DNA of 40,067 nucleotides, from NCBI RefSeq assembly GCF_004103825.1, contig NZ_RYFI01000004.1:231327-271393 (forward strand). Direction: 5' to 3'. Numbering within the stretch: position 1 is the first letter of the stretch; each line of letters begins with the position of its first letter. The notes under the pieces are model-generated. The model worked only from the letters and a program-made list of their open reading frames with translations. It was not told the DNA's origin and ran no database searches. The translations under genes were made by a program, and so were the position numbers. Below, one piece after another: positions 3,844 to 34,015 of the stretch. This DNA is from Hansschlegelia zhihuaiae (GTDB taxonomy: Bacteria > Pseudomonadota > Alphaproteobacteria > Rhizobiales > Methylopilaceae).

Positions 3844-3919
3844 GGGCCTGTAGCTCAATGGTTAGAGCCGACCGCTCATAACGGTCTGGTTGCAGGTTCA
3901 AGTCCTGCCGGGCCCACCA
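3844..3919 (+). tRNA. tRNA with CAT anticodon, most like tRNA-Ile2
   Basis: A 76-base cloverleaf: acceptor stem GGGCCTG pairs with CGGGCCC (one T-G wobble), the D-arm holds TAGCTCAATGGTTAGAGC, the anticodon arm is GACCG-CTCATAA-CGGTC, the T-arm is GCAGG-TTCAAGT-CCTGC, and CCA is encoded. CAT anticodons occur in initiator Met, elongator Met and the lysidine-modified Ile2. The C4-G69 and C5-G68 pairs, the TGGTT variable loop and TTCAAGT T-loop match tRNA-Ile2 better than elongator Met; the TilS-modified form reads ATA. Initiator features (three G-C pairs flanking the anticodon, mismatch at 1-72) are absent. Confidence 0.9.
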
Positions 3920-18970: not shown

Positions 18971-19078
18971 TGGAGGGGTCGAGATTGGATACGGGCCCCC
19001 GATGCGGCGGCCGCCCCACGAATACAATCCGCATTGTTCTTCGGCGTTCTTCTCGGGACATGTTTGGGGGATCACTTG

Positions 19079-20107
19079 GTGTACGCCCGCCTCACAGCCA
19101 ACGTAGTCGTCATACTGTTCAGTTGTTTTTGGGCCGCCGGGCAGGCGGGGGCTTATCAGTGCCCGTCCACGCCGCCTGTGGTTCGCGATCTGAGGATGAA
19201 GCCTTTCTATGCGGACGGTGAGAAGTCTGTCATCGATCCTCAAAGGAGGGCTAAGTATGTCCAGGCTTCGCGTGGCCTGAACCGTTACTTGAGGGTCGTA
19301 TTGGGGCAGGCGGATGCTTTCGCCGCCACTCACGATGAGAACGCTCGTTCTTGCGCTATCAGTCTACTGGGCGCGTGGGCGGCCGCTGATGCGATGAACG
19401 GGCGGCACACGTCACAGGGCCAGCACAATCGCGCCTGGGCGCTCGGCTCTCTTTGCCTGGCTTACATCAAGCTCGGAGGCAAGGAGAGGTCGTCCAACGA
19501 CGGGGCGATCGGAGCTTGGTTCTCGCGGCTAGCAGACGGGGTGGTCGCGCATCAGACCAGCCGACGGAACGAGCACGGCGCCGACGCCGAGACGAATTTG
19601 TATTACTGGGCCGGCATGTCCGTGGGCTGCGTGGGCGTCGTTCTCGACAGGGCGGACTATTGGCGGTTCGGCGCTGAGGCGTTCGAGCGGGCGACGGCTA
19701 ACATCGGGCCGGACGGCGTGCTGGCCATCGAGTCGCGCCGCGGCAGACGCGCGGCTTTGTACCATGACTTCGCGGCCCAACCGCTCGTGTTGCTCGCTCG
19801 CCTGGGCCGGTATGGGGGCGACGACATTTATGGACGTGATGGCGAGGCGCTCGATCGCCTGGTCGGTCTCGTGAAGCGCCTACTCGCAGACCCGCAGATC
19901 CTCGCGCGCTCTGCTGGCGTCGAACAGGAGGCGCTGCCGAGAGCTCGGTGGATGGGGCTATATGAGCGGCTTCGGGGCGCAGAAGCCTATTATGCGGCGC
20001 CAGAAGATGAAGAGCGCGACCAAGACAGCCGACTAGGAGGGCGGGTGGCGGCCCTCGACAAGGCGCTGCAAGGAAGCTCCTCGACGGCGAAGAGCTCTTC
20101 GCCGTAA
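19079..20107 (+). CDS. Secreted AlgL-like (PL5 alginate lyase family) protein, probably inactive
   Basis: 342 residues from GTG 19079, chosen for the GGGGGA site seven bases upstream and the signal peptide that follows (LTANVVVILFSCFWAAGQAGA). The mature part begins CPSTPPVVRD and keeps the AlgL layout: FYADGEKSVIDPQ, ADAMNGR, a Q-x-x-x-x-R-A-W helix, YYWAGMSV and RRAALYHDFAAQPL. By eye, the AlgL catalytic NH pair is Asn173-Leu174 and the catalytic Tyr of the YHNY motif is Phe231, while Arg224 is kept. Known PL5 enzymes use that His and Tyr for beta-elimination of mannuronate. This copy may bind a polymer rather than cleave it, or act differently. No alginate synthesis genes are nearby. Confidence 0.8.
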   Translation: MYARLTANVVVILFSCFWAAGQAGAYQCPSTPPVVRDLRMKPFYADGEKSVIDPQRRAKYVQASRGLNRYLRVVLGQADAFAATHDENARSCAISLLGAWAAADAMNGRHTSQGQHNRAWALGSLCLAYIKLGGKERSSNDGAIGAWFSRLADGVVAHQTSRRNEHGADAETNLYYWAGMSVGCVGVVLDRADYWRFGAEAFERATANIGPDGVLAIESRRGRRAALYHDFAAQPLVLLARLGRYGGDDIYGRDGEALDRLVGLVKRLLADPQILARSAGVEQEALPRARWMGLYERLRGAEAYYAAPEDEERDQDSRLGGRVAALDKALQGSSSTAKSSSP

Positions 20108-21646: not shown

Positions 21647-23176
21647 TTGAGCATTTCCAATGCCGTGCCGTTGGCGGTCTGCTCGGATCAGGCGTTCTCT
21701 TCGCTGGATCCGCTGTCGCAACTCGCGATCTGGCACGGCACAGACAAATATGGCGAGCATTTTTACACGCCTCATTACCATCGACACTTCGAGGCGCTCA
21801 GAGATCGCCCCGTCACATTGCTCGAGGCCGGCATTGGCGGGTATGACGATCCGGAGGCAGGCGGCGAAAGCCTGGCCATGTGGCGAGACTACTTTCCCTC
21901 CGGTCGTATCATCGGCATAGACATCGCTCCGAAGCGGCTGGATCTCGGTTCCCGGGTCGAGATTCGGCAGGGCTCGATGTCCGACGGCCATTTTCTCGAG
22001 ACGCTGAACGCCGAGTTCGGGCCGTTCGACATCGTCATCGACGATGGAAGCCACGTCTCCGCCGACACGATCGGCTTCTTCGAGGCCAGCTTTCCATTCG
22101 TCGCCGACGGCGGCTTCTTCGCAATCGAAGACACCCAGACCTCCTATTGGCCTGCGTTCGCCGGCGGCCTCTCGCCGAGCCGACGCACCACGATGAACTT
22201 CGTGAAGGCCTTGATGGACGAGGTCGACCACGCCGAGCGGGCGTGGGCGCCCGACGCGCCCAGGCCTCACCCGTTCGCGGCCTCCATCCACGCGATCCAC
22301 CGCTTCCACAATCTTGTCCTGATCGAGAAGGGCTCGAACACGGAGACGTCCAACTTCGCGCGGCCCACGAGCCGCGCCGCGGATCCGGCGAGGCAGGCCG
22401 CCCTCGCCGCTTTTCGCGCCCTGCTCGAGTCCGGCGCCGGGAGCGAAGCCGCCGCCTTGGCTTGCGCTCGGATGACGCTGGAGAGCGGCGACGCCGAGGA
22501 GGCGCTACGCCGAATCGAGGCGTCGCTCGCCCAGTTTCCCGATTCGCGCCGCCTGCTCCTGCTTGGCGCCCGCATCGCTTTGGATCTCGGCCGCGTGGAC
22601 GAGGCCGCCGCGCATGCGCGGCGGAGTATGCGCCACGGTCGCCTCGACGCCGAGGTTTTCATTGCGGCGTCGTCGCAATTGCGGCAGCGCTTCCCGGACC
22701 TCGCTGCAGACGTCGAGGGCGCCGCGGGCGGCCCCGACGCCGACGCTGGCGTCTGCCTTCAGGCGGCTCGGGTGCTGGAGTCCTTGAAGATCAGGGAGCG
22801 CGCATTGCATTGGCTGAAAGCGGCCGCGTCCCGACTTCAGGCGCAGCACAGCCACCTTCTCAATGACCTGACCGATGCGTTTCGGCGCCTCGGGGAGCCG
22901 TTGGAGGCGTTGGCCCATAGCCAGGGCTCCACAAGCCAGCCGCCATTCCCGGCCCGCCTGCTGAGACATGGGGCTCTGCTCCGCGCGGCCGGACGCCTCG
23001 AGGAGGCGGAGGACGCGTTGTCGGAGGCCGTCGCTCTGGACTGGCGGCAGCCGCGAGCACATGCCGAACGGAGTCGCACGCTCGCCGCGATGGGGCGCCA
23101 CAGCGAGGCGTTCGAGGCGGCGAAGGCCGTGCTGGCGAGCGCCCCGCGGTCGCGCGCCGGCGAGGGCGCGCCATGA
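21647..23176 (+). CDS. MycE-like sugar O-methyltransferase fused to TPR domain
   Basis: 509 residues. The N-terminal ~240 residues match MycE/demethylmacrocin-type sugar O-methyltransferases, which are metal- and SAM-dependent: HGTDKYGEHFYTPHYHRHF, LLEAGIGGYDDPEAGGESL, IIGIDIAPK, FDIVIDDGSHV (metal-binding acidic cluster) and IEDTQTSYWPAF. The remaining ~260 residues are Ala/Leu/Arg-rich helices in TPR arrangement, including AGRLEEAEDALSEAVALD. The start is TTG at 21647 with GAAAGGG upstream. It opens a coupled operon; its stop overlaps the next ATG (ATGA at 23173). The TPR part may scaffold other glycan enzymes. Confidence 0.88.
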   Translation: MSISNAVPLAVCSDQAFSSLDPLSQLAIWHGTDKYGEHFYTPHYHRHFEALRDRPVTLLEAGIGGYDDPEAGGESLAMWRDYFPSGRIIGIDIAPKRLDLGSRVEIRQGSMSDGHFLETLNAEFGPFDIVIDDGSHVSADTIGFFEASFPFVADGGFFAIEDTQTSYWPAFAGGLSPSRRTTMNFVKALMDEVDHAERAWAPDAPRPHPFAASIHAIHRFHNLVLIEKGSNTETSNFARPTSRAADPARQAALAAFRALLESGAGSEAAALACARMTLESGDAEEALRRIEASLAQFPDSRRLLLLGARIALDLGRVDEAAAHARRSMRHGRLDAEVFIAASSQLRQRFPDLAADVEGAAGGPDADAGVCLQAARVLESLKIRERALHWLKAAASRLQAQHSHLLNDLTDAFRRLGEPLEALAHSQGSTSQPPFPARLLRHGALLRAAGRLEEAEDALSEAVALDWRQPRAHAERSRTLAAMGRHSEAFEAAKAVLASAPRSRAGEGAP

Positions 23177-24471
23177 CGGGGCGCCGGTCCGACGCGCCGC
23201 TCCGCGTCCACATCACGGGCGTCTCCGACGTTCACAATTTCGGCGACGCGCTGTTCCCGCTGATCGCCGCGCATCGGCTGGCGCCGCATGGGATTTCGGT
23301 GACGCCGGCGTCGCCCACGGGCGCGGCCCTGTCATGGCCGGACGCGCTTCCCTCCGTGCCCATCGAGAGCGTGCTGCTCGGGAGCGAGCCGACCGACGGA
23401 CTGCTGATCGGAGGCGGCCACATCGTCATGTGCGGCTTCAGAGACGGGTTGTTCGAGGGTCCTTCCGGAGCGGATTATGCGACCGCGTTGCCCTCTCTCT
23501 GGCTGGGCGCGTCCTTGGCCGCGGCGCTTCGGAAGGTGCCGGTCGCGTGGAACGCCCCAGGCGTGTTTTCTCCGCTGATCGGCGCAGACCTCAAGGCGGT
23601 GGCCAACGCCGCCATACGGACGGCGGGCTATCTCAGCGTCCGGGACGCGGAAAGTCGGGCGCATCTGGGCGATCATCACGAGCGGGACATTCAGGTGGTC
23701 CCCGACACTGTTTTCGGCGTCGAAGCGATGTGGCCTCGCGCCCAGCTCGAGCCTGTGTTTCGAGCCATGCTGCAGCGGAAGAGCGTCGAGCGGCCTTCGA
23801 CCCTGTTGGCGGTTCATTTTCGTGGAATGGCGCTTCAGCAGGCCGCTCTCGCCGAGATCGCCGCGCGGCTTGACGACATGGCGGGCGCGCACGGCGTCGT
23901 CCCGCTCCTGGTGGCCGTTGGACCGGGCGTGAGGGATGATGAGACGGCGCGAGAGATCGCGCTGCGGATGACCCGCCCCCACATCCTCCTTGACGATCCG
24001 CGCTCGCTAAAGGAGATCGTCGCGGCTTTGGCCCTGTCCGATCTCTATGTCGGGCAGTCGCTGCACGGCTATGTGGTCGCGGTCGCTTATGGCGTTCCCG
24101 GAATTCTGATCGGGAAGCCGCCCGCGCGGCGCTTCCGCGGCGTGCTGAAGCAGATCGGACGGCCGCAGGATCTCTTTCGCACTTTGCCCGAAGCCCTGGA
24201 GGCCGCCGCCTGCCGGCTGCGGGCTGGTGCCATCCAAGTGGCGGCGCCGACCACCGCAGGCGCTCTCGACCGACATTGGGCCTCTGTCTTGGCCACCTTC
24301 CGTGAATCGGGCGAGCCGGCGACTTCGGAGCGGCTCGCCCTCCCCCGGCGCCTACCTCTCACTGGGCTTGCGGCGGAGCGGGGCGCCATGGTTCCTCCAG
24401 CCGTTCGCCGCCCCGGACATCGCGTTCGGCGCCCGAAGCAGCGCCGCGCCCGCTGTGACATCCGCAGATGA
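23173..24471 (+). CDS. Polysaccharide pyruvyltransferase-family protein
   Basis: 432 residues. The N-terminus HITGVSDVHNFGDALFPLIAA is the family's NxGD opening, the middle holds LLIGGGHIV, and the C-terminal half has the GQSLHGYVVAVAYGVPGILIG motif that corresponds to the SxRxH-x-x-I-x-A region of CsaB/WcaK-like enzymes. These transfer pyruvate from phosphoenolpyruvate to sugars, forming ketals, although some relatives have other roles. Here the usual Arg before His is replaced (QSLHG). The last ~60 residues are Arg-rich and not conserved. It shares ATGA overlaps with both neighbours (23173 and 24468), so it belongs to the coupled operon. Confidence 0.85.
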   Translation: MTGRRSDAPLRVHITGVSDVHNFGDALFPLIAAHRLAPHGISVTPASPTGAALSWPDALPSVPIESVLLGSEPTDGLLIGGGHIVMCGFRDGLFEGPSGADYATALPSLWLGASLAAALRKVPVAWNAPGVFSPLIGADLKAVANAAIRTAGYLSVRDAESRAHLGDHHERDIQVVPDTVFGVEAMWPRAQLEPVFRAMLQRKSVERPSTLLAVHFRGMALQQAALAEIAARLDDMAGAHGVVPLLVAVGPGVRDDETAREIALRMTRPHILLDDPRSLKEIVAALALSDLYVGQSLHGYVVAVAYGVPGILIGKPPARRFRGVLKQIGRPQDLFRTLPEALEAAACRLRAGAIQVAAPTTAGALDRHWASVLATFRESGEPATSERLALPRRLPLTGLAAERGAMVPPAVRRPGHRVRRPKQRRARCDIRR

Positions 24472-26195
24472 CTGATACCGTCGCCCCGACCGAAGCGCCG
24501 GACTTCCTCACCGCATTCCGCCGGCACGCGGCGGCGCGGGCCGACCAGACCGCGTTGCGCTGGCTGGAACGCGGAGAGCGGCCCACCGACCACGCGACCT
24601 ATGCCGACCTCGACGCCATGGCTTGCGTCACGGCCGCGAACCTGCTGCGTCTCGGGCTGCGCGGCCGGCCGGTGCTCTTCCTCCTGCCGCAGGGCCTGGA
24701 TTTCGTCCGCTGCTTCCTCGGCTGTCTCTATGCGGGCGCCATCCCCGTGCCGGCGCCGCTCTCTCCCGGCCGGCGTAACCAGGACCGCGCCCTCGCGATC
24801 GCGCAGGCCGCGCGCCCGGCCGCGGCGCTCGCCCGTTCCGCGGACGCCGAAGCGGCCGAAGGCGTTTCGGCCGCGTTGCGTCTGTCCGGCGTCTCCGACA
24901 TCCAATTGATCGCCAGCGAAGACCTGTTGTCCGGCGCCGCCGCCGAAGCGCCCGTGACGCCTGACCCCGACCAGATCGCCTTTCTGCAATACACGTCGGG
25001 GTCGACCAGCGCGCCGAAGGGCGTCGTGGTGACGCACCGCAATCTCGCCGCCACGCTGGACCTGATCCGGCAGGCCTTCAGGCAGGAGGCCGACAGCAGC
25101 GCCGTGAGCTGGCTGCCGCTGCACCACGACATGGGTCTGGTCGGCTGCGTGCTGGAACCCCTCTACCTCGGAGCGCGCGTCTCGCTGATGTCGCCGCTCG
25201 CCTTCCTCCAGCGCCCTGCCCGCTGGCTGCAAGCCATGCACGACTGGCAGGCCACGACTGCGGGCGCGCCGAATTTCGCCTATGACCTGTGCGCCCGGCT
25301 TGTGACCGAGGAACAGTCGCGCGGGCTCGATCTGTCGCGCTGGACGCTCGCCTTCTGCGGCGCCGAGCCGGTGCGTCCCGCCACGCTGCGCCGTTTCGCC
25401 GAGCGCTTCGCCCCCCACGGCTTCGGCTCCAACGCCTTCTACCCTTGCTACGGCCTCGCGGAAGCCACACTGCTGGTCACCGGCGGCGCCGCGGGCGAAG
25501 GGGTCCGGACGCGCAATCTCCCTTTGCCGCAGGGCCGGGGCGAGCGCGAAAGCGTCTCCTGTGGAGTTGGCTACGGCGACACCCGCATCATGATCTTGGA
25601 TCCGGGTTCGGAGGAAATCTTGGCTCCGGGGCGCCCTGGCGAAATCTGCGTTTCAGGCTCCCAGGTGAGCCCCGGCTTCTGGAGCGGCGAAACCGGCCGC
25701 GCTCTGCCTGATCCTTCCAGGGAAGTGCGGCTCGACGGCCGTTCCTGGCTGCGCACCGGGGACATCGGACTGATCGCGGAGGGAGACCTGCACGTGATCG
25801 GCCGGCTCAAATCGATGATCATCGTCCGCGGCGCCAACATCTACGCCGAGGACGTCGAACAGACCGCGCTTGCGGTGGATGCGGCGCTCGCCGCCGCGGC
25901 CGCCATTCCGATTCACGGCGAGGCCTCGGAAGACCTGGTGCTGATCTGCGAGGCGGCGCGTGGCCAGCCGCTGGACGACCCCGAGGAGATCTTGCGCCGA
26001 CTCTCCGCCGCCGTCGCCGAACAGCACGGCCTGCTGCCGGCCGAGGTGCTTCTGGCGCCATTCGGCGCGATCGAGCGCACGCCGAGCGGCAAAATACAGC
26101 GTCTTCGCCTGCGCGACCGCTACGCGGCGGACGATCTGACCGTCATCGCGAGGTTGCGTCGTCCCGTTACGACGTCCGAAATGGCGCGGGCATGA
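24468..26195 (+). CDS. Fatty acyl-AMP ligase (FAAL-type adenylate-forming enzyme)
   Basis: 575 residues. Activates a fatty acid as acyl-adenylate and probably loads it on the ACP encoded two genes later. Motifs: the phosphate loop YTSGSTSAPKG at 175-185, LPLHHDMGL at 216-224 (typical of FAAL rather than ordinary acyl-CoA ligases), the adenine-binding FYPCYGLAEATL, the RTGDIGLI hinge region and the catalytic lysine in TPSGKIQR (Lys542). A FAAL-specific insertion is suggested by IVRGANIYAEDVE context but cannot be proved by eye. ATGA overlaps on both sides (24468, 26192) show tight coupling to a P450 and the ACP. Found normally in lipopeptide or polyketide clusters; here inside a glycan operon. 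Confidence 0.93.
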   Translation: MTDTVAPTEAPDFLTAFRRHAAARADQTALRWLERGERPTDHATYADLDAMACVTAANLLRLGLRGRPVLFLLPQGLDFVRCFLGCLYAGAIPVPAPLSPGRRNQDRALAIAQAARPAAALARSADAEAAEGVSAALRLSGVSDIQLIASEDLLSGAAAEAPVTPDPDQIAFLQYTSGSTSAPKGVVVTHRNLAATLDLIRQAFRQEADSSAVSWLPLHHDMGLVGCVLEPLYLGARVSLMSPLAFLQRPARWLQAMHDWQATTAGAPNFAYDLCARLVTEEQSRGLDLSRWTLAFCGAEPVRPATLRRFAERFAPHGFGSNAFYPCYGLAEATLLVTGGAAGEGVRTRNLPLPQGRGERESVSCGVGYGDTRIMILDPGSEEILAPGRPGEICVSGSQVSPGFWSGETGRALPDPSREVRLDGRSWLRTGDIGLIAEGDLHVIGRLKSMIIVRGANIYAEDVEQTALAVDAALAAAAAIPIHGEASEDLVLICEAARGQPLDDPEEILRRLSAAVAEQHGLLPAEVLLAPFGAIERTPSGKIQRLRLRDRYAADDLTVIARLRRPVTTSEMARA

Positions 26196-27409
26196 CCATG
26201 TCCGACGTCGGCCCTCTGCATGATCTCCCCGAATGGGTCGAGCCCCCGCGCCCGCCGGAGTTCCATCCGCGCGGCGGCAATTCCTGGGTTATCAGCCGGT
26301 ACGCCGACGTCTCAACCGCGCTGCGCCATCCGGGCGTTGAGGCTGAGGAGCCGGAGAAAGCCATCCATGCGCTCGCGGAGCGGACCGGGGCTGCGTTTCC
26401 CTACTTCGAGCTCCAGCTTCGCTGCTTCCTGTTCTCGACCAATCCCCCCTGGCATGCGAAGGCGCGCCGTTTCATCCGTCAAGCGGTCCGCCAGATCGAG
26501 CAAGCGCTTTCGCTCCCAGTCAGCGGCGAGATCGCCGACGAACTGCTCGCCGCGACGCCGCGAGGCGTCGAGATCGACGCCATGCCGTGCCTGTGCGACG
26601 ACTTTCCCGACAGCGTCATGGCGCGGGGATTCGGCGTCGATAAGGACGCTCTGGCTGAGGTGTCGCGGCGAACCACGGCCCTGTTCAACTCCCTCAAGCG
26701 CCAACTGCCGCTGCGGGTCGTGCGCGACTACGAAGCGCAGGCCGAACATTTGGCGGGGCTTCTTGATCGAACGATGAGGGGAACGCCTACCTTGGACGCC
26801 ATCCGCGCGGCAGGGCGTCAGGACGGTGAATTCACCGATGCGGAGATCGGCGCGCTGTTGGCGTTTCTCGTGCTCGCCTCGACCGACACCGCCTCGACGC
26901 TCCTCGGGAACACGCTGAGACTTTTCGGCCGCCACCCCGAGATCGTGGCGGCGATTCGCGACGAGCCGGATCTCTTGCGGACAGGATTGGACGAGCTGTT
27001 TCGGTTTGGCGCTCCGATCAGGCGGTTGGCCCTGCGGATGACGACCGAGGAGGTCGAAATCGGCGGCCGCGTGATTCCCGAAGGCTCCCGGCTCCTGCTC
27101 GACGCGGAACGCGCCCATTTCGATCCTGCGGCCTATCCGGATCCGGGCAAGGTGGACCTGCGCCGTGGCGGGCCGCCCAGCCTGGCGTTCGGGGGCGGAG
27201 CACACACCTGCGTCGGGATGCTCTTGGGCCGTCAGATAGCCGCGACTTTTCTCGCGCGTCTTGTCGAGAGATGTGAGATCAGTCTGACCGACGCCCCGGC
27301 CGACTGGTCGGCGGCCGACCTCACGCGTCGGCTGAGGAGCCTGCCGATCATCATCCAGGACCATGCGCCCCAAGCGCCATCGACAGCTCGCAAGGAAACG
27401 ACGACATGA
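26192..27409 (+). CDS. Cytochrome P450
   Basis: 405 residues, soluble bacterial type with no membrane anchor. The heme ligand loop is FGGGAHTCVGMLLGR at 333-347 (Cys340), the K-helix ExxR is ELFR at 268-271, and the I-helix ASTDT at 229-233 keeps the acid-alcohol pair Asp232/Thr233 although the usual Gly is Ser. It lies between the acyl-AMP ligase and the ACP with ATGA overlaps at both ends, so its likely substrate is the ACP-bound acyl chain, as for P450s that act on carrier-bound substrates. The product (hydroxy, ketone or cleaved chain) cannot be inferred. Redox partners are not in this window. Confidence 0.95.
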   Translation: MTMSDVGPLHDLPEWVEPPRPPEFHPRGGNSWVISRYADVSTALRHPGVEAEEPEKAIHALAERTGAAFPYFELQLRCFLFSTNPPWHAKARRFIRQAVRQIEQALSLPVSGEIADELLAATPRGVEIDAMPCLCDDFPDSVMARGFGVDKDALAEVSRRTTALFNSLKRQLPLRVVRDYEAQAEHLAGLLDRTMRGTPTLDAIRAAGRQDGEFTDAEIGALLAFLVLASTDTASTLLGNTLRLFGRHPEIVAAIRDEPDLLRTGLDELFRFGAPIRRLALRMTTEEVEIGGRVIPEGSRLLLDAERAHFDPAAYPDPGKVDLRRGGPPSLAFGGGAHTCVGMLLGRQIAATFLARLVERCEISLTDAPADWSAADLTRRLRSLPIIIQDHAPQAPSTARKETTT

Positions 27410-27678
27410 ATGACGTTCCGACAGTCACGCTGGACGCCGTGCGCGAATGGATGATCGGATATGTCAGCTCGACGCTCGAGATTCCGCGCGAAGTGGCGGC
27501 GCCCGACGCGACGTTCGACACCTATGGCCTCGACAGCGCCGAGGGCGTGATCATGGCCGGCGTCATCGAAGAGGAGTTCGGGATCGAGATCGACCCTGCG
27601 GTGTTCTTCGAGGACCCGACGATCAACGGCGTCGCGGCCGTCGTGGTCCGCCTTCGGCGCGAACAGACCGGCGGCTAG
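27406..27678 (+). CDS. Acyl carrier protein
   Basis: 90 residues. One carrier-protein domain with the phosphopantetheine site YGLDSAE at 40-46 (Ser44), followed by the acidic recognition helix GVIMAGVIEEEFGIEIDP and DPTINGVAAVV, all as in freestanding ACPs. Overlaps the P450 stop (ATGA at 27406). It is the likely acceptor for the acyl-adenylate made by the ligase and the substrate platform for the P450. The Ala after Ser (DSA rather than DSL) is common in carriers outside primary fatty acid synthesis. Confidence 0.95.
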   Translation: MNDVPTVTLDAVREWMIGYVSSTLEIPREVAAPDATFDTYGLDSAEGVIMAGVIEEEFGIEIDPAVFFEDPTINGVAAVVVRLRREQTGG

Positions 27679-27687
27679 GCCCGCCGG

Positions 27688-28566
27688 ATGGTTGTGGAAG
27701 CGCCGGAGATCAGCGTCGTCGTCATCAGCTACAACATGGCTCGGGAGATTCCCCGCACGCTCTTCTCGCTCTCATCGCCCTACCAGACGCTGTGTCCTCG
27801 CGGCCGCCACGAGGTTCTTCTGGTCGATAACGGATCGAGCGCGCCGCCGCGTCCGGAAGACTTCGCCGCCCTCGACGTGGACGTCGCGGTGCATCACTGG
27901 CCAAAGCCGACTCACTCGCCCGTCGCTGCGCTGAATTTCGGCTTGGCGCAGGCCAGGGGCGAGTTGATCGGGGCCTGGATCGACGGCGCCCGCCTCGCCT
28001 CGCCCGGCCTCATCGACGCCTGCGCAAAGGCGTCCCGGCTTCACGCCCGGCCTGTGATCGTGACCGAGAACCGCCATCTCGGACCGAGGGTGCACCCGCT
28101 CTCGCTTCGCTCCGGATATGACAGGCGCTCGGAGGACGCGTTGCTCGCTTCGATCGCCTGGGAGACCAATGGGTATGGGCTGTTCGGCGTGTCGACGCAT
28201 GTCGACAGCGCCGCAAGCGGCGGCCCCATCCTAGAGAGCAACGCGATCTTCATGCCGCGGCCGCTTTGGGAGGAACTCGGGGGCTACGACGAAGCATTCG
28301 ACAGTCCGGGCGGCGGCGCGGTCAATCCGGACCTGCTGATACGGGCCTGCGCGCTTCCAGGCGCCCAGCTCATCCGCATCGTCGGCGAGGCGACGTTCCA
28401 TCAGATGCATGGCGGCGCGACGAGCGGCGATCCGGACGTCTTCGACCGGGTCCTGATCGCCTGCAGCCGCGAATATTTCCGAATCCGCCGCAAACCGCTG
28501 AGACCGGTCCGCGATCCGGGCTGGCTGTTCGACGCCAGGCTTGGTCGGGTGGTTTCTCCGCCTTGA
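27688..28566 (+). CDS. Family 2 glycosyltransferase
   Basis: 292 residues. SVVVISYNMAREIPRTLFSL opens a GT2 fold, followed by EVLLVDNGSS and GAWIDGARLASPG; the DGA in the last motif stands where DxD is usual, as in a known GT2 subgroup. Later, ILESNAIFMPRPLWEELGGYDE gives the acceptor-side motif. It starts nine bases after the ACP stop, so it ends the coupled operon. It could glycosylate or transfer sugar to the acyl chain or to the glycan. Its stop lies two bases from the convergent stop of the next gene. Confidence 0.9.
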   Translation: MVVEAPEISVVVISYNMAREIPRTLFSLSSPYQTLCPRGRHEVLLVDNGSSAPPRPEDFAALDVDVAVHHWPKPTHSPVAALNFGLAQARGELIGAWIDGARLASPGLIDACAKASRLHARPVIVTENRHLGPRVHPLSLRSGYDRRSEDALLASIAWETNGYGLFGVSTHVDSAASGGPILESNAIFMPRPLWEELGGYDEAFDSPGGGAVNPDLLIRACALPGAQLIRIVGEATFHQMHGGATSGDPDVFDRVLIACSREYFRIRRKPLRPVRDPGWLFDARLGRVVSPP

Positions 28567-28568
28567 GC

Positions 28569-30371
28569 TCAGCCGGGGAGACCCAGATCCTCGTGCAGAA
28601 GTTGGTCCCAGAACGCGGTTCCGATGATGTCGAGGGGCAGAGCCGACTGATCCAGGACGGGCACAGGGCGCAGAACGACGTTGGCGACCCCGATCAGCCG
28701 AGCCGCATTGTGGTCGCCGCGCGCCGTGCCTGAGGCGAAATAGTAGAAGTTCCGCGTATCAGGATTGGCGGCGAAGAGGTCCACAAGATCGGCGTTGGGA
28801 CTGGCGGACGCGAGTATTTTGGCCCATCTGCGGATCCGGTGCATTCGGTTGTATGGCGAAGCGCGCTCGCCCTGGATCGGTCCGGTATCGAACGTCGTCG
28901 GCGCTCCCAGCAGGACCGCTGCGTCGGCGCTCAGCGCGGCTCCGATCCGCGCCGCGGCATGACCCCCGATCGACGCTCCCAGGGTGACGACCCGCTCGGC
29001 CTTCATGTCCGCAAGCAGGTCCCGCAGCCCTGCGACGGTCCCTTCCAACGATCCGCCGAAGCTCTTCAAGCCGCGCAGATAGCCGCGCATCCTCGCGTCG
29101 CGGAGATAGATCATATGCGCCGGCAGGCCGGCGAAAAGCGCGTCGAAATAGCAGAACGGCAGATACGAATGTCCGCCGGTCGCGCCGCCGAAGACGAGAA
29201 TCGCCGTCTGCGCGCCGTCGCATGGTACGACCTGCACCTCAGCGGCCCGATCGTCGCCGAGGCGCGAATAGCGGTCCCAAACCTCCGCCGGCATCGTCTC
29301 CAGTATGCGCCGAAGCGGCTCTGACATCGCCCCCGTCACGCCGTCTGGAACAATTCCGTTCAGCAAACCGAGCGCTTCCTCGGTCCTGCGCAGGTTCAGC
29401 AGGCTGAGGGCGATCTGGAAGCGCGAGATCTCCGGAAGAGCGGCTGGGTCGGTCCGCCGCGTGGCGAGGTCGACCACATGCTCGATCCGCTCGCGCGGCG
29501 CGGCGAGGACATTGAAGCGTGACAACAGCACCCAATCGCCCGGCCAACGCTCCAGCGCGGCCGTGAGCGCCTCGGTCGCCTCTTCGGGGTCGCCGGCGAG
29601 AAAAAGAGCTCCGACCAAGCGACGCGCGTGGTCGATCTGATCCGGCTCTTCCGCGGCGAGCTGGCGCGCGAGCGGCAACAGATCCGCCGCTCGTCCCTCG
29701 GCCAGCATGAGATCCGCTTCGACGGCGCGAGCGCGCAAAGGAGCCGTCTCAATGCTCCCGATCCGCGCCAGGACGCGACGCGCCTCCTCCTCCCTTCCCT
29801 GACGAGCCTTGAATTCCGCGAGTTTCGAAAGGGCCGCAGCCGCAAGCGCCGGCTCCGGGGCGCCGGCGAGGCGCTCCAAGAACCCTGCCGCGTCGTCATT
29901 GTCGTCCGTCGCGGGCACGAGCCAGCCGAGCCCCCGAAGCTTGGCGTCCTCCGGCGCGGGGCCGCTCCAGATCTCCGCAGCGAAGACTTCGCGGGCCTGG
30001 GCAAGGTCGCCGCTGTCGCGCAGCAACCGGACGGCCCGCAACAGCGGCCAGTGGCCTTCTGCACTTTCGCGGCCGAGCTCAAGATACCCCTCGATCGCGG
30101 CGGCGGGATCATTCAAGCGCTGCAGGATCTCGGCGCGCCGAATGCGAAGGCCATAATCGCGCGGCCAGCGCCGAAGCGCCTCCTCGGCGATATGGCGGGC
30201 GCGCTCCAGCTCCCCGCCGTCTAGCGCTGTCGAGATTTTGCTCCTCGACTCTGCTAGATCCTCTGCAGCCTTCGTCACGGCATCCTTCACCAGATCGTGT
30301 GCGGCCTTCGCCTCCGCGCCGTTATCCATAGGTTCGCCCGCCTCGTCCCGCTGTCGCGCAACATTGTCCAT
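28569..30371 (-). CDS. TPR-containing alpha/beta-hydrolase-fold protein
   Basis: 600 residues from ATG 30371 (ATG 30329 or a start at 30458 are alternatives; none has a strong ribosome site). The first ~370 residues are helical TPR-like repeats (ELERARHIAEEALRRWP, DPAAAIEGYLELGRES, DPEEATEALTAALERWPGD). The last ~220 residues look like an alpha/beta hydrolase: AILVFGGATGGHSYLPF, the nucleophile elbow LGASIGGHAA, and a Asp-His pair in GTARGDHNAAR. Similar hydrolase-fold proteins can be glycan or acyl transferases or esterases. It is convergent with the acyl-module operon and divergent from the methyltransferase at 30416. A role in moving the acyl group to the glycan is inference. Confidence 0.8.
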   Translation of the reverse strand: MDNVARQRDEAGEPMDNGAEAKAAHDLVKDAVTKAAEDLAESRSKISTALDGGELERARHIAEEALRRWPRDYGLRIRRAEILQRLNDPAAAIEGYLELGRESAEGHWPLLRAVRLLRDSGDLAQAREVFAAEIWSGPAPEDAKLRGLGWLVPATDDNDDAAGFLERLAGAPEPALAAAALSKLAEFKARQGREEEARRVLARIGSIETAPLRARAVEADLMLAEGRAADLLPLARQLAAEEPDQIDHARRLVGALFLAGDPEEATEALTAALERWPGDWVLLSRFNVLAAPRERIEHVVDLATRRTDPAALPEISRFQIALSLLNLRRTEEALGLLNGIVPDGVTGAMSEPLRRILETMPAEVWDRYSRLGDDRAAEVQVVPCDGAQTAILVFGGATGGHSYLPFCYFDALFAGLPAHMIYLRDARMRGYLRGLKSFGGSLEGTVAGLRDLLADMKAERVVTLGASIGGHAAARIGAALSADAAVLLGAPTTFDTGPIQGERASPYNRMHRIRRWAKILASASPNADLVDLFAANPDTRNFYYFASGTARGDHNAARLIGVANVVLRPVPVLDQSALPLDIIGTAFWDQLLHEDLGLPG

Positions 30372-31949: not shown

Positions 31950-32891
31950 ATGAGCCATTCTGTAGCGTCGGCCGCACCATATGATGAGATATTCGCGCGC
32001 ATCGAGCGGCGTCGCATCATAGTGCCCGCAGGTTTTCATATGGACAGCGTCGGTCAACTGACGCGGTTCGATCACATGCTGCCAACCGCGTATGTGCGGC
32101 GCATGCGCGCCGAAGCCCTCAAGCCATATCCCATGGCCCCCAACCCGCCGCCGCCTGAAAATCCGCACCGCTACGAACTGGGCGCCGTACTCTACGCAGC
32201 GCTCTCTTCGCGCGACCGGTTCACCATGATCGAGCTGGGCGCAGGCATCGCCCCATGGTGCGTCACGGCGGCTTGCGGACTTCGGGCTCTGGATCCGAAG
32301 CCGTTGCTCCTTGTAGGCGTCGAGGCCGAGCCCAGCCGGTTCGCCTGGATGCGGCAGCACCTCATCGACAACGACCTGAACCCCGACGCGCACATCCAGA
32401 TTCAGGCCGCCATTCTTCCCTCGGACGACTGGAAGCCGTTCGCGCTGTTTCCGAGGGGAGTGCCGAATTTCGGCGGGCACCGCGTAGTGACGGACCTTGC
32501 GCGCGAGCACGAAACGTCAGGGGTGACCGAAAGCCCGCATTTCGATCCGGGGCAGGACACCTTCTCGCTTGAACGGATCGAGGCGGTCACGCTCGAGATG
32601 GTGCTCGACCGTCTCCCGGCCGGGCCGGTGGACCTTGTGCACATGGACATCCAGGGGATCGAGGAGAGGGTGGTCGCAGCCGCCGTCGGCCCGCTCACCG
32701 AGCGAGTCCGGCATCTTGCGATCGGGACGCACAGCGTCGCTATCGATCAGGGGTTACGCGAACTCCTGTCGGGACAAGGTTGGACCCTTCACTTTGCGCT
32801 CGAGTCGCTGGCGATGAACCATGTCGGCGACGCCATGGTCGACCTCTCAATGGACGACGGCTTCCAGCATTGGATCAATTCGAGACTATGA
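31950..32891 (+). CDS. FkbM-family methyltransferase (copy A)
   Basis: 313 residues. FTMIELGAGIAPWCVTAA is motif I, VGVEAEPSRFAWM the acidic loop and VDLVHMDIQGIEERVV the FkbM signature. FkbM proteins methylate hydroxyls of sugars and related compounds. ATG 31950 follows GGAA. It is related to the protein at 37033-37908: both share ELGAG, VEAE/VEAD, H(M/I)D(I/M)QG and IGTH in the same order. Its stop overlaps the start of the SGNH hydrolase (ATGA at 32888), so the two form a unit. Unlike its paralogue it has a central insert (about RGVPNFGGHRVVTD). Confidence 0.88.
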   Translation: MSHSVASAAPYDEIFARIERRRIIVPAGFHMDSVGQLTRFDHMLPTAYVRRMRAEALKPYPMAPNPPPPENPHRYELGAVLYAALSSRDRFTMIELGAGIAPWCVTAACGLRALDPKPLLLVGVEAEPSRFAWMRQHLIDNDLNPDAHIQIQAAILPSDDWKPFALFPRGVPNFGGHRVVTDLAREHETSGVTESPHFDPGQDTFSLERIEAVTLEMVLDRLPAGPVDLVHMDIQGIEERVVAAAVGPLTERVRHLAIGTHSVAIDQGLRELLSGQGWTLHFALESLAMNHVGDAMVDLSMDDGFQHWINSRL

Positions 32892-34015
32892 GGCCGTCAG
32901 TCGGTGGGGTGCCATCGGTCTTGCGCGAAGCGAGCGAGCAGGAAGCCTTCGCCAATCGTCTGGCGCGACTGCTGACAGGCCAACGCACAATCCTTTATCT
33001 CGGCGCGAGCGTGACGGCGCAGAAGGAGTCCTACTGTCACGCCTTCCACGATCTGCTCTGCCGGGTCACGGGCCACGCGCATGAATTTCACCGGATCGCC
33101 GAAGGGGGCGCGAGCTCGGCCTATGCGCTAGCGCTGCTGCTGCAGAGCCTTCGCGATAGACCGAGGCGCTACGACCTCGTCTTTCTCGAAACCCTAACCG
33201 GTGATCTCAACCTGTTGGTGCCGCCCGCAGTGGTGCCAGCTGTCCTGGGAGCGACGGCTGACGCTGTGCGCGACCAGGGCGGCGAATTGTGCATGATCAA
33301 ACTGCCGCGCTTAGATCGGCCGGACGATCATCCCATCACGCTTGCCTATGACGAGAGCGCGGCCGAGCTCGGCCTGCCTGTGCTGGACGTGTCGGGCTTC
33401 GGCAGGCCCGAACACGGAGCCGAGCCGCTGAGCCGAATGGCTTTGCGGGACGGCATCCACACCACGGAGGCGGGATCGGTGCTGTTCGGCGCGAGCCTCC
33501 TGTCGCGCCTGCTATCGCCAGACGCGGCTTGGCCCGAGCCGCGATCTGCCCCCGGTTTCGGCGCCCCGCTGCGACAACGGTTGGGCAGGTTGCAGTGGCT
33601 CCTCGATGACCTCGACTGGCGTCGGACGGACGGTTTGGAGCGCGACGTCTTCCGGGCCCCCTCGGGAGAGCGGGTTCATCCCGTCGTCTTGGGGCCGGCC
33701 GAGCAGCCAATCGAATTCGCCTTCAGCGGCTACATCGCCTATTTCCTGTTCGTTTCGGCCCCGGATTCGGCGATGATCGAGCTCACTTTCCAAGGCGTCG
33801 CCCGGCGAACGCCGCTCCTGGACCGGTACGGCCATTTCCCCCATCTTCACATGAAGTCGGTCTTCCGCGACTTCCGTGAAGGGGACGAGATTCGGATCCT
33901 TGGACTGGATGAGTTGCCGCACCCTAACCCTGTCCCGAGCGAGCACCGACATCTGCTGAGCAAACACCGGAAGGTCCGCTTTCTCGGCGTCATCGGCGCA
34001 CCGGGACCGGACTGA
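32888..34015 (+). CDS. SGNH-hydrolase-fold protein
   Basis: 375 residues. ILYLGASVTAQKESY gives block I with Ser41 in GAS instead of GDS, EGGASSAYALA the block II glycine, and DGIHTTEAG the Asp188-x-x-His191 pair. SGNH enzymes in glycan loci remove or transfer acetyl or other acyl groups. The C-terminal ~150 residues add a beta-rich domain (IEFAFSGYIAYFLFVS, IELTFQGVARRT). No signal peptide, so it may act in the cytoplasm. ATGA overlap with the FkbM gene suggests both act on one sugar unit. The frame is open upstream of the ATG but that part is a shadow of the FkbM gene. Confidence 0.82.
   Translation: MRPSVGGVPSVLREASEQEAFANRLARLLTGQRTILYLGASVTAQKESYCHAFHDLLCRVTGHAHEFHRIAEGGASSAYALALLLQSLRDRPRRYDLVFLETLTGDLNLLVPPAVVPAVLGATADAVRDQGGELCMIKLPRLDRPDDHPITLAYDESAAELGLPVLDVSGFGRPEHGAEPLSRMALRDGIHTTEAGSVLFGASLLSRLLSPDAAWPEPRSAPGFGAPLRQRLGRLQWLLDDLDWRRTDGLERDVFRAPSGERVHPVVLGPAEQPIEFAFSGYIAYFLFVSAPDSAMIELTFQGVARRTPLLDRYGHFPHLHMKSVFRDFREGDEIRILGLDELPHPNPVPSEHRHLLSKHRKVRFLGVIGAPGPD

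Follow-up and report, generated by a model that had tools for sequence, protein, structure and literature searches.

A compact gene cassette with a fatty acyl-AMP ligase, an acyl carrier protein, oxygenases and sugar-related enzymes in some alphaproteobacteria

Which product can be expected from a fatty acyl-AMP ligase (FAAL), a cytochrome P450 and an acyl carrier protein (ACP) whose genes are coupled to each other amid genes for sugar enzymes? This question is raised by a stretch of 40,067 nucleotides from Hansschlegelia zhihuaiae (contig NZ_RYFI01000004.1, positions 231,327 to 271,393), referred to here over its whole length as the window, in which a first, sequence-only reading had recognized the three genes as a trio joined by ATGA overlaps. 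Their positions and their joining were confirmed on the open reading frames and the DNA, but the coupling extends beyond the trio: the run reaches two genes further upstream, a methyltransferase/TPR gene and a gene for a polysaccharide pyruvyl transferase family protein (PSpyr), with four ATGA overlaps at 23173, 24468, 26192 and 27406. The cassette spans roughly 21.6-30.3 kb of the window and is thus larger than the trio first noted. We think, with a probability of about one half, that it is a self-contained compact cluster that joins an oxidized fatty acyl group to a sugar. Its genes are the following:

21647 to 23176, + strand: protein with methyltransferase-like N-terminus and TPR repeats, opening the ATGA-coupled run (Pfam TPR_19 5.3e-07, above cut-off; Methyltransf_24 1.5e-04, just under cut-off)
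23173 to 24471, + strand: PSpyr (PF04230, 5.2e-18)
24468 to 26195, + strand: FAAL (Pfam AMP-binding, 8.7e-67)
26192 to 27409, + strand: cytochrome P450 (Pfam P450, 8.6e-20)
27406 to 27678, + strand: free-standing ACP (PF00550, PP-binding, 5.3e-14)
27688 to 28566, + strand: GT2-type glycosyltransferase (PF00535, 4.6e-08)
28569 to 30329, - strand: protein with TPR repeats and an alpha/beta-hydrolase-like C-terminus (TPR_19 1.7e-10; the scan used a longer start, 30458)

The GT2 gene starts 9 bases past the end of the ACP gene, and the TPR/hydrolase-like gene is convergent behind it. At the thresholds applied, none of the other cassettes yielded a match to the methyltransferase/TPR gene, which is therefore possibly local to the window locus.

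Recurrence of the cassette in other genomes

The genes for PSpyr, FAAL, ACP, GT2 and the TPR/hydrolase protein occur together in five other alphaproteobacterial loci, namely on a plasmid of Sphingobium sp. RAC03 and in the genomes designated G345, G602, G634 and G514. Of the neighbors named in the sequence-only reading, the GT2 and pyruvyl-transferase-family genes are kept with the set in these five loci. A P450 is present in four of the five and a pair of PhyH dioxygenases in three, and a bare FAAL-P450-ACP trio was found in a sixth other genome, G281. An oxygenase is thus found in all seven loci, as a P450 in six and as a PhyH pair in three; in G345, where the contigs break off, a P450 was not seen. 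The three trio genes follow one another directly in just three loci, the window, G602 and G281; in Sphingobium, G634 and G514 further cassette genes lie among them.

The locus of G602 reads TPR/hydrolase, methyltransferase, PSpyr, PSpyr, FAAL, P450, ACP, GT2, which is the window order from PSpyr on. G514 and Sphingobium share a different order with two PhyH genes, annotated in the latter on one strand as pyruvyl transferase, TPR protein, pyruvyl transferase, ACP, glycosyltransferase, PhyH, fatty acyl-AMP ligase, PhyH, P450 and large glycosyltransferase. The order is FAAL, methyltransferase, PSpyr, TPR/hydrolase, ACP, GT2, P450 in G634, and FAAL, ketosynthase, methyltransferase, TPR/hydrolase, PSpyr, ACP, PSpyr, two PhyH and a convergent GT2 in G345, where it is broken by contig ends and where the FAAL carries, as judged by eye, a carrier-like C-terminal extension. 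The trio of G281 has TauD, FAD-oxidoreductase and EamA genes nearby; the gene for the TauD-family dioxygenase (L030 7971-8897) is convergent to the trio, and its product perhaps takes the place that PhyH oxygenases have in other cassettes.

The cassette is rare in the samples searched. The P450 as bait matched 14 of 101 related genomes at E 1e-20 (own genome included, none of 12 from the same genus), the other matches being 25-30% identical with no FAAL or ACP match in roughly 3-4 kb around each. At 1e-30, 6 of 385 genomes drawn from the class matched, again with the own genome, and among the other five only G281 has a FAAL and an ACP adjacent (neighborhoods of 20 kb were compared for G454, G283 and G329, and of about 4 kb for G104). 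A Saccharopolyspora P450, the only and weak match (30%) in a named genome, was set aside: an AMP-binding match of 27% lies about 2.7 kb off, and neither an ACP nor another cassette protein matched there. With the ACP as bait, 61 of 72,556 plasmid records matched, of which Sphingobium sp. RAC03 ranked best, with the ACP beside a polysaccharide pyruvyl transferase. Its proteins are identical to those of the window at 54% (GT2), 49% (ACP), 44% (pyruvyl transferase), 44% (FAAL), 30% (P450) and 28% (TPR/hydrolase); the strain has been linked to a haptophyte co-culture, according to an excerpt of the study concerned (PMC5095461).

The GT2 was used as bait in several overlapping draws. It matched 7 of 297 genomes of the order at 1e-25 (own, G602, G634 and G514 strongly; G085, G080 and G552 more weakly), 2 of 385 in the class (own and G345), 8 of 349 in the phylum at 1e-30 (own and seven weaker ones), 1 of 11 in the family of G602, 3 of 10 in that of G634 and 3 of 72,556 plasmid records, and it had no match among 50,697 phage records. 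Homologs of FAAL, ACP, pyruvyl transferase and TPR/hydrolase adjoin the GT2 in all five loci besides the window where it is at least 49% identical. At 48% identity or less these four were matched, at the cut-offs used and within roughly 6-18 kb on each side, in none of ten distinct loci (Rhodobacter CZR27, Acuticoccus I52.16.1, which is G552, and G085, G080, G693, G713, G723, G726, G793 and G901). Some of these distant GT2 homologs are extended at the C-terminus by a further domain: in that of Rhodobacter CZR27 (L039 17998-19539) the domain is annotated as a CmcI-type methyltransferase, and in that of Acuticoccus (L040 17980-19824) it is sulfotransferase-like by eye.

Phylogenetic trees are in line with this distribution. 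The five cassette P450s and that of G281 lie on one side of a branch with support 100/99, opposite 21 others (24 outside loci had been offered, and L003, L010 and L028 did not pass the filter for length and absence of stops). Five cassette FAALs group with support 97/95, with that of G281 at 96/90, and all seven at 86/81, with the 12 plasmid FAALs and the paralog of the own genome falling outside this group; all 13 outside loci passed the filter here, and the plasmid FAALs were hand-picked from 40 matches listed of 179 records. Seven of the 12 lie in or at most 5 kb from annotated polyketide synthase (PKS) or nonribosomal peptide synthetase (NRPS) genes and one near a ketosynthase-like gene, and four come from records without annotation. 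As the families recur together and group in the trees, the linkage of FAAL, P450 and ACP appears to be more than chance.

A coupling of the trio without a PKS or NRPS had also been claimed. A ketosynthase query had no match in the window, in the 40 kb upstream or in the tested flanks of five of the six related loci, G345 being the exception; as a positive control, the query did match contig C59 of the own genome, where an open frame of 2549 residues includes a ketosynthase (L087). NRPS were probed only through the FAAL query, which gave one further AMP-binding match (L042, in G345). Related loci are therefore not restricted to the vicinity of such synthetases, as would have spoken against the first reading, and the gene content supports the view that the FAAL-P450-ACP set would not need them.

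The encoded enzymes

The AMP-binding fold of the window ligase is closest to FAALs by Pfam, by NCBIfam and by a sequence search against solved structures. Among NCBIfam models, the ligase fits the N-terminal part of the NRPS/PKS model PRK05691 best, followed by FAAL models (PRK05850, 1e-109), and the curated cut-off was reached by none of the 25 models listed. The nearest solved structures are of the FAAL type, namely 7r7f (2e-112; the chain of 572 residues is named polyketide synthase), 3kxw, FadD23 and FadD32. Counting by eye on the translations placed Lys542 (TPSGK) of the FAAL and Ser44 (GLDS) of the ACP where the sequence-only reading had put them. In all seven FAALs aligned, an alignment without any CoA ligase, a segment of variable length lies between GLAEAT and SCG, a position at which the FAAL-specific insertion would be expected. 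In the window protein this variable segment contains the stretch LPLPQGRGERE (window 25515-25553), which is absent from the other six; an origin from a repeat was considered and rejected, with only 12-16-base matches elsewhere in 92,907 bases and a short palindrome that lies beside the stretch, not at it. The own genome encodes a second FAAL-like ligase (contig C1, L021), 35% identical to that of the window.

The P450 has, as had been stated, its complete motifs: ExxR, the heme Cys and the I-helix acid/alcohol pair are found in all six P450s aligned, with Ser for Thr in L035. A P450-derived glycosyltransferase activator, the second-best NCBIfam model (77 bits, cut-off 343), was set aside, as the heme Cys is retained; to our knowledge such activators lack it. 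An electron-transfer partner inside a P450 cluster is common and not required, and neither a ferredoxin nor a reductase is found among the window cassette genes, to which the search for partners was confined. The ACP has the PP-binding fold (best solved-structure match 2n98, 2.3e-10) with the Ser of the DS(x) motif, which is present in all seven ACPs aligned. The phosphopantetheinyl transferase family has one match in the own genome.

The GT2 is the best-conserved gene in four of the five cassette comparisons, the exception being G634, where the ACP is conserved more. It is 53-59% identical to the window protein in Sphingobium, G602, G634 and G514 and 49-55% over two fragments in G345, and the ACP is 40-59% identical across the five; the two genes are adjacent in the window and in four of the other five full cassettes. 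PSpyr homologs occur in all five (41-44% identity, best copy). The family match of PSpyr (PF04230) is above cut-off, as for CsaB-like polysaccharide pyruvyl transferases, but it stays under the CsaB equivalog cut-off (45 versus 213 bits). The TPR/hydrolase protein, likewise in all five (28-32% identity), has a weak profile match to the hydrolase 5a62 (E 0.0054); in its structure predicted from the single sequence, residues 326-586 have a pLDDT below 50, and this prediction was set aside. A few genes from the cassette, the protein encoded at 32780-34015 weakly matches a GDSL-lipase/acylhydrolase-like family (2.2e-05, under the family cut-off) and could conceivably transfer acyl groups to sugars or remove them.

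The proposed pathway and its alternatives

Carrier loading is the reaction expected of FAAL and ACP families. In the pathway that we propose, the FAAL would turn a fatty acid into an acyl-AMP and then load it onto the dedicated ACP. The chain held on the ACP would be the substrate of the P450, and some relatives would use two PhyH dioxygenases in addition or instead; the oxidation is placed on the acyl chain because an oxygenase, P450 or PhyH, is found in all seven loci. The GT2, the pyruvyl-transferase-family protein and the methyltransferases would then lead to a glycosylated or sugar-linked oxidized lipid, with the TPR/hydrolase-like protein as candidate for acyl release or transfer. The argument for a sugar-linked product is that GT2, PSpyr and TPR/hydrolase steadily accompany the set. 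More tentatively, these loci might form a so far undescribed class of compact clusters for oxidized acyl-glycans, in which a FAAL-loaded acyl-ACP is oxidized on the carrier by a P450, paired PhyH enzymes or both and is then joined to a sugar by a dedicated set of GT2, pyruvyl-transferase-family and TPR/hydrolase proteins. The pyruvyl-transferase-family proteins could in that case act on a carrier-bound or acyl-sugar substrate and not on a polysaccharide.

Several observations weigh against the joining of an oxidized acyl group to a sugar by a self-contained cluster. No other window cassette protein, sugar genes included, was matched in the 40 kb compared around the G281 trio, so that the trio can do without a sugar linkage, and the cassette of G345 holds a polyketide ketosynthase (PF00109, 1.1e-73). 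A known sugar-acylating acyltransferase family was recognized in none of the 22 window proteins scanned, several of which have no family at all (proteins before 10772 lay outside the scan). In the alignment of the TPR/hydrolase proteins, the nucleophile Ser is present in six of six and the His, presumably its catalytic partner, in five of six; because the window copy has Gln at the latter position, the hydrolase step may be lost, altered or taken over by another enzyme in this strain. Most cassettes were found with the GT2 as bait, by which GT2-free cassettes would be missed, and Rhodobacter CZR27, counted as cassette-free, carries, at a distance of about 12 kb from the GT2, a gene annotated for the pyruvyl transferase family but too divergent to match. 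Finally, the cassette label needs two changes on the FAAL tree, with the trio nesting inside, and the FAAL of G345 is a long branch of unsure placement.

One alternative, which we consider rather unlikely, is that the product is a free oxidized fatty-acid small molecule similar to the polyynes, such as a signal or an antimicrobial, and that the sugar genes merely tailor or export it. The G281 trio with none of the set's sugar genes would fit this idea. Clusters with FAAL, ACP and chain oxidation that make free lipids without a PKS or NRPS do exist in the polyynes, as described in part of PMC8406139. However, neither a desaturase nor a rubredoxin nor a recognized thioesterase is found among the window cassette genes, and the GT2 is the gene conserved best in four of the five comparisons.

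The sequence-only reading had favored a decoration or lipid anchor for the polysaccharide of the neighboring glycan genes, a proposal to which we assign a similarly low likelihood. In the window the cassette does sit among glycosyltransferase and methyltransferase genes, with the weakly GDSL-lipase-like protein nearby. Lipid anchoring of a capsule via an acyl-ACP is known for the Vi antigen, as a passage of PMC9597891 describes. The surrounding glycan as the target fares less well, as the cassettes of G602 and Sphingobium stand alone, clearly outside any larger glycan operon: the former is flanked by PEP_mutase and 2-hydroxyacid dehydrogenase genes on one side and by TPP enzyme and CoA-transferase genes on the other, with DctM also present, and the latter sits between kdp genes and sulfatase/GH3 genes. 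The flanks of G634 and G514, as far as annotated, show no long run of glycan genes; there is a glycosyltransferase gene near both (in G634 downstream, with beta-lactamase-family and Abhydrolase_10 proteins upstream), and a Kdo transferase lies upstream in G514. The G+C content of the window cassette (68%) also differs from that of the glycan stretches on either side (56-64%, and 63% for those adjoining it) and is closer to the 70% of the upstream chromosome. A VexE-like acyltransferase was not recognized among the 22 scanned proteins.

The glycan region has some further features. A tRNA-Met at 3844-3919 lies between sequence of 72% G+C and the glycan genes of lower G+C and is a possible marker of an island boundary. 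An alginate-lyase-family protein is encoded at 19034-20107 (PF05426, 4.9e-32), and the right end of the window, 40067, is the contig end, so that the region may go on in another contig. A role of four of the proteins in a defense system was considered and dropped, as PADLOC gave no hit.

A role of the oxidized acyl-ACP as a starter that a polyketide synthase encoded at another site of the genome would receive in trans is very improbable, as the ketosynthase inside the G345 cassette and the long ketosynthase frame on C59 would suit it but nothing ties the latter to the cassette, and the ketosynthase query found no match in the window, its 40 kb upstream or the tested flanks of the other five loci.

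Comparison with known systems

A literature search gave, among the matches listed, no publication on this gene set, with most subscription papers outside its scope. FAALs are known chiefly for priming the assembly lines that make polyketides and peptides. A 2025 review, in its consulted part, treats them mainly in this role; its main text has no word starting with P450, glycosyl or saccharide, but Table 2 does list mycobacterial sulfolipids and glycopeptidolipids (PMC11837247).

The alkyne and polyyne systems of the JamABC type (FAAL, desaturase, ACP) resemble the cassette in combining a stand-alone FAAL and ACP with a chain-oxidizing enzyme, and a FAAL-desaturase-ACP run was also seen on a Polaromonas plasmid. 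In the cassette, P450 or PhyH enzymes replace the desaturases, none of which is found among the window cassette genes or the annotated cassette genes of Sphingobium, and GT2, pyruvyl-transferase-family, TPR/hydrolase-like and methyltransferase genes are added. Polyyne clusters commonly have FAAL, desaturases, ACP, thioesterase and rubredoxin, with a P450 apparently in place of the last two in 10 actinobacterial genomes (PMC8406139, in part).

On a plasmid of Nostoc sp. MS1, in what appears as a FAAL-P450 starter unit, an AMP-binding FAAL-type protein is likewise followed by a P450; its ACP is fused, the match lying inside the same gene, and an NRPS/PKS gene is directly next, whereas the window cassette contains none. 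Mycobacterial sulfolipid and glycopeptidolipid pathways employ large PKS or NRPS proteins, in contrast to the window locus, where no such protein is found. Their FAALs do resemble that of the cassette, as proposed here, in feeding glycolipids (Table 2 of the same review, as consulted, PMC11837247). In the glycolipid anchor of the Vi antigen, an activated sugar is acylated in dependence on an acyl-ACP, but VexE is an LPLAT-type acyltransferase that uses beta-hydroxyacyl-ACP, as stated in the relevant part of PMC9597891, whereas the window has FAAL and P450 and no recognized LPLAT protein among those scanned.

The cassette is thus apparently an undescribed, rare and compact variant of the PKS/NRPS-free FAAL clusters, present in some alphaproteobacteria. 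A conserved FAAL cluster with sugar enzymes and chain oxygenases, usually without an assembly line, would widen the known chemistry of FAALs in the direction of glycolipids of Gram-negative bacteria, and its small, cloneable gene set allows the oxidation of a carrier-bound acyl chain to be tested directly.

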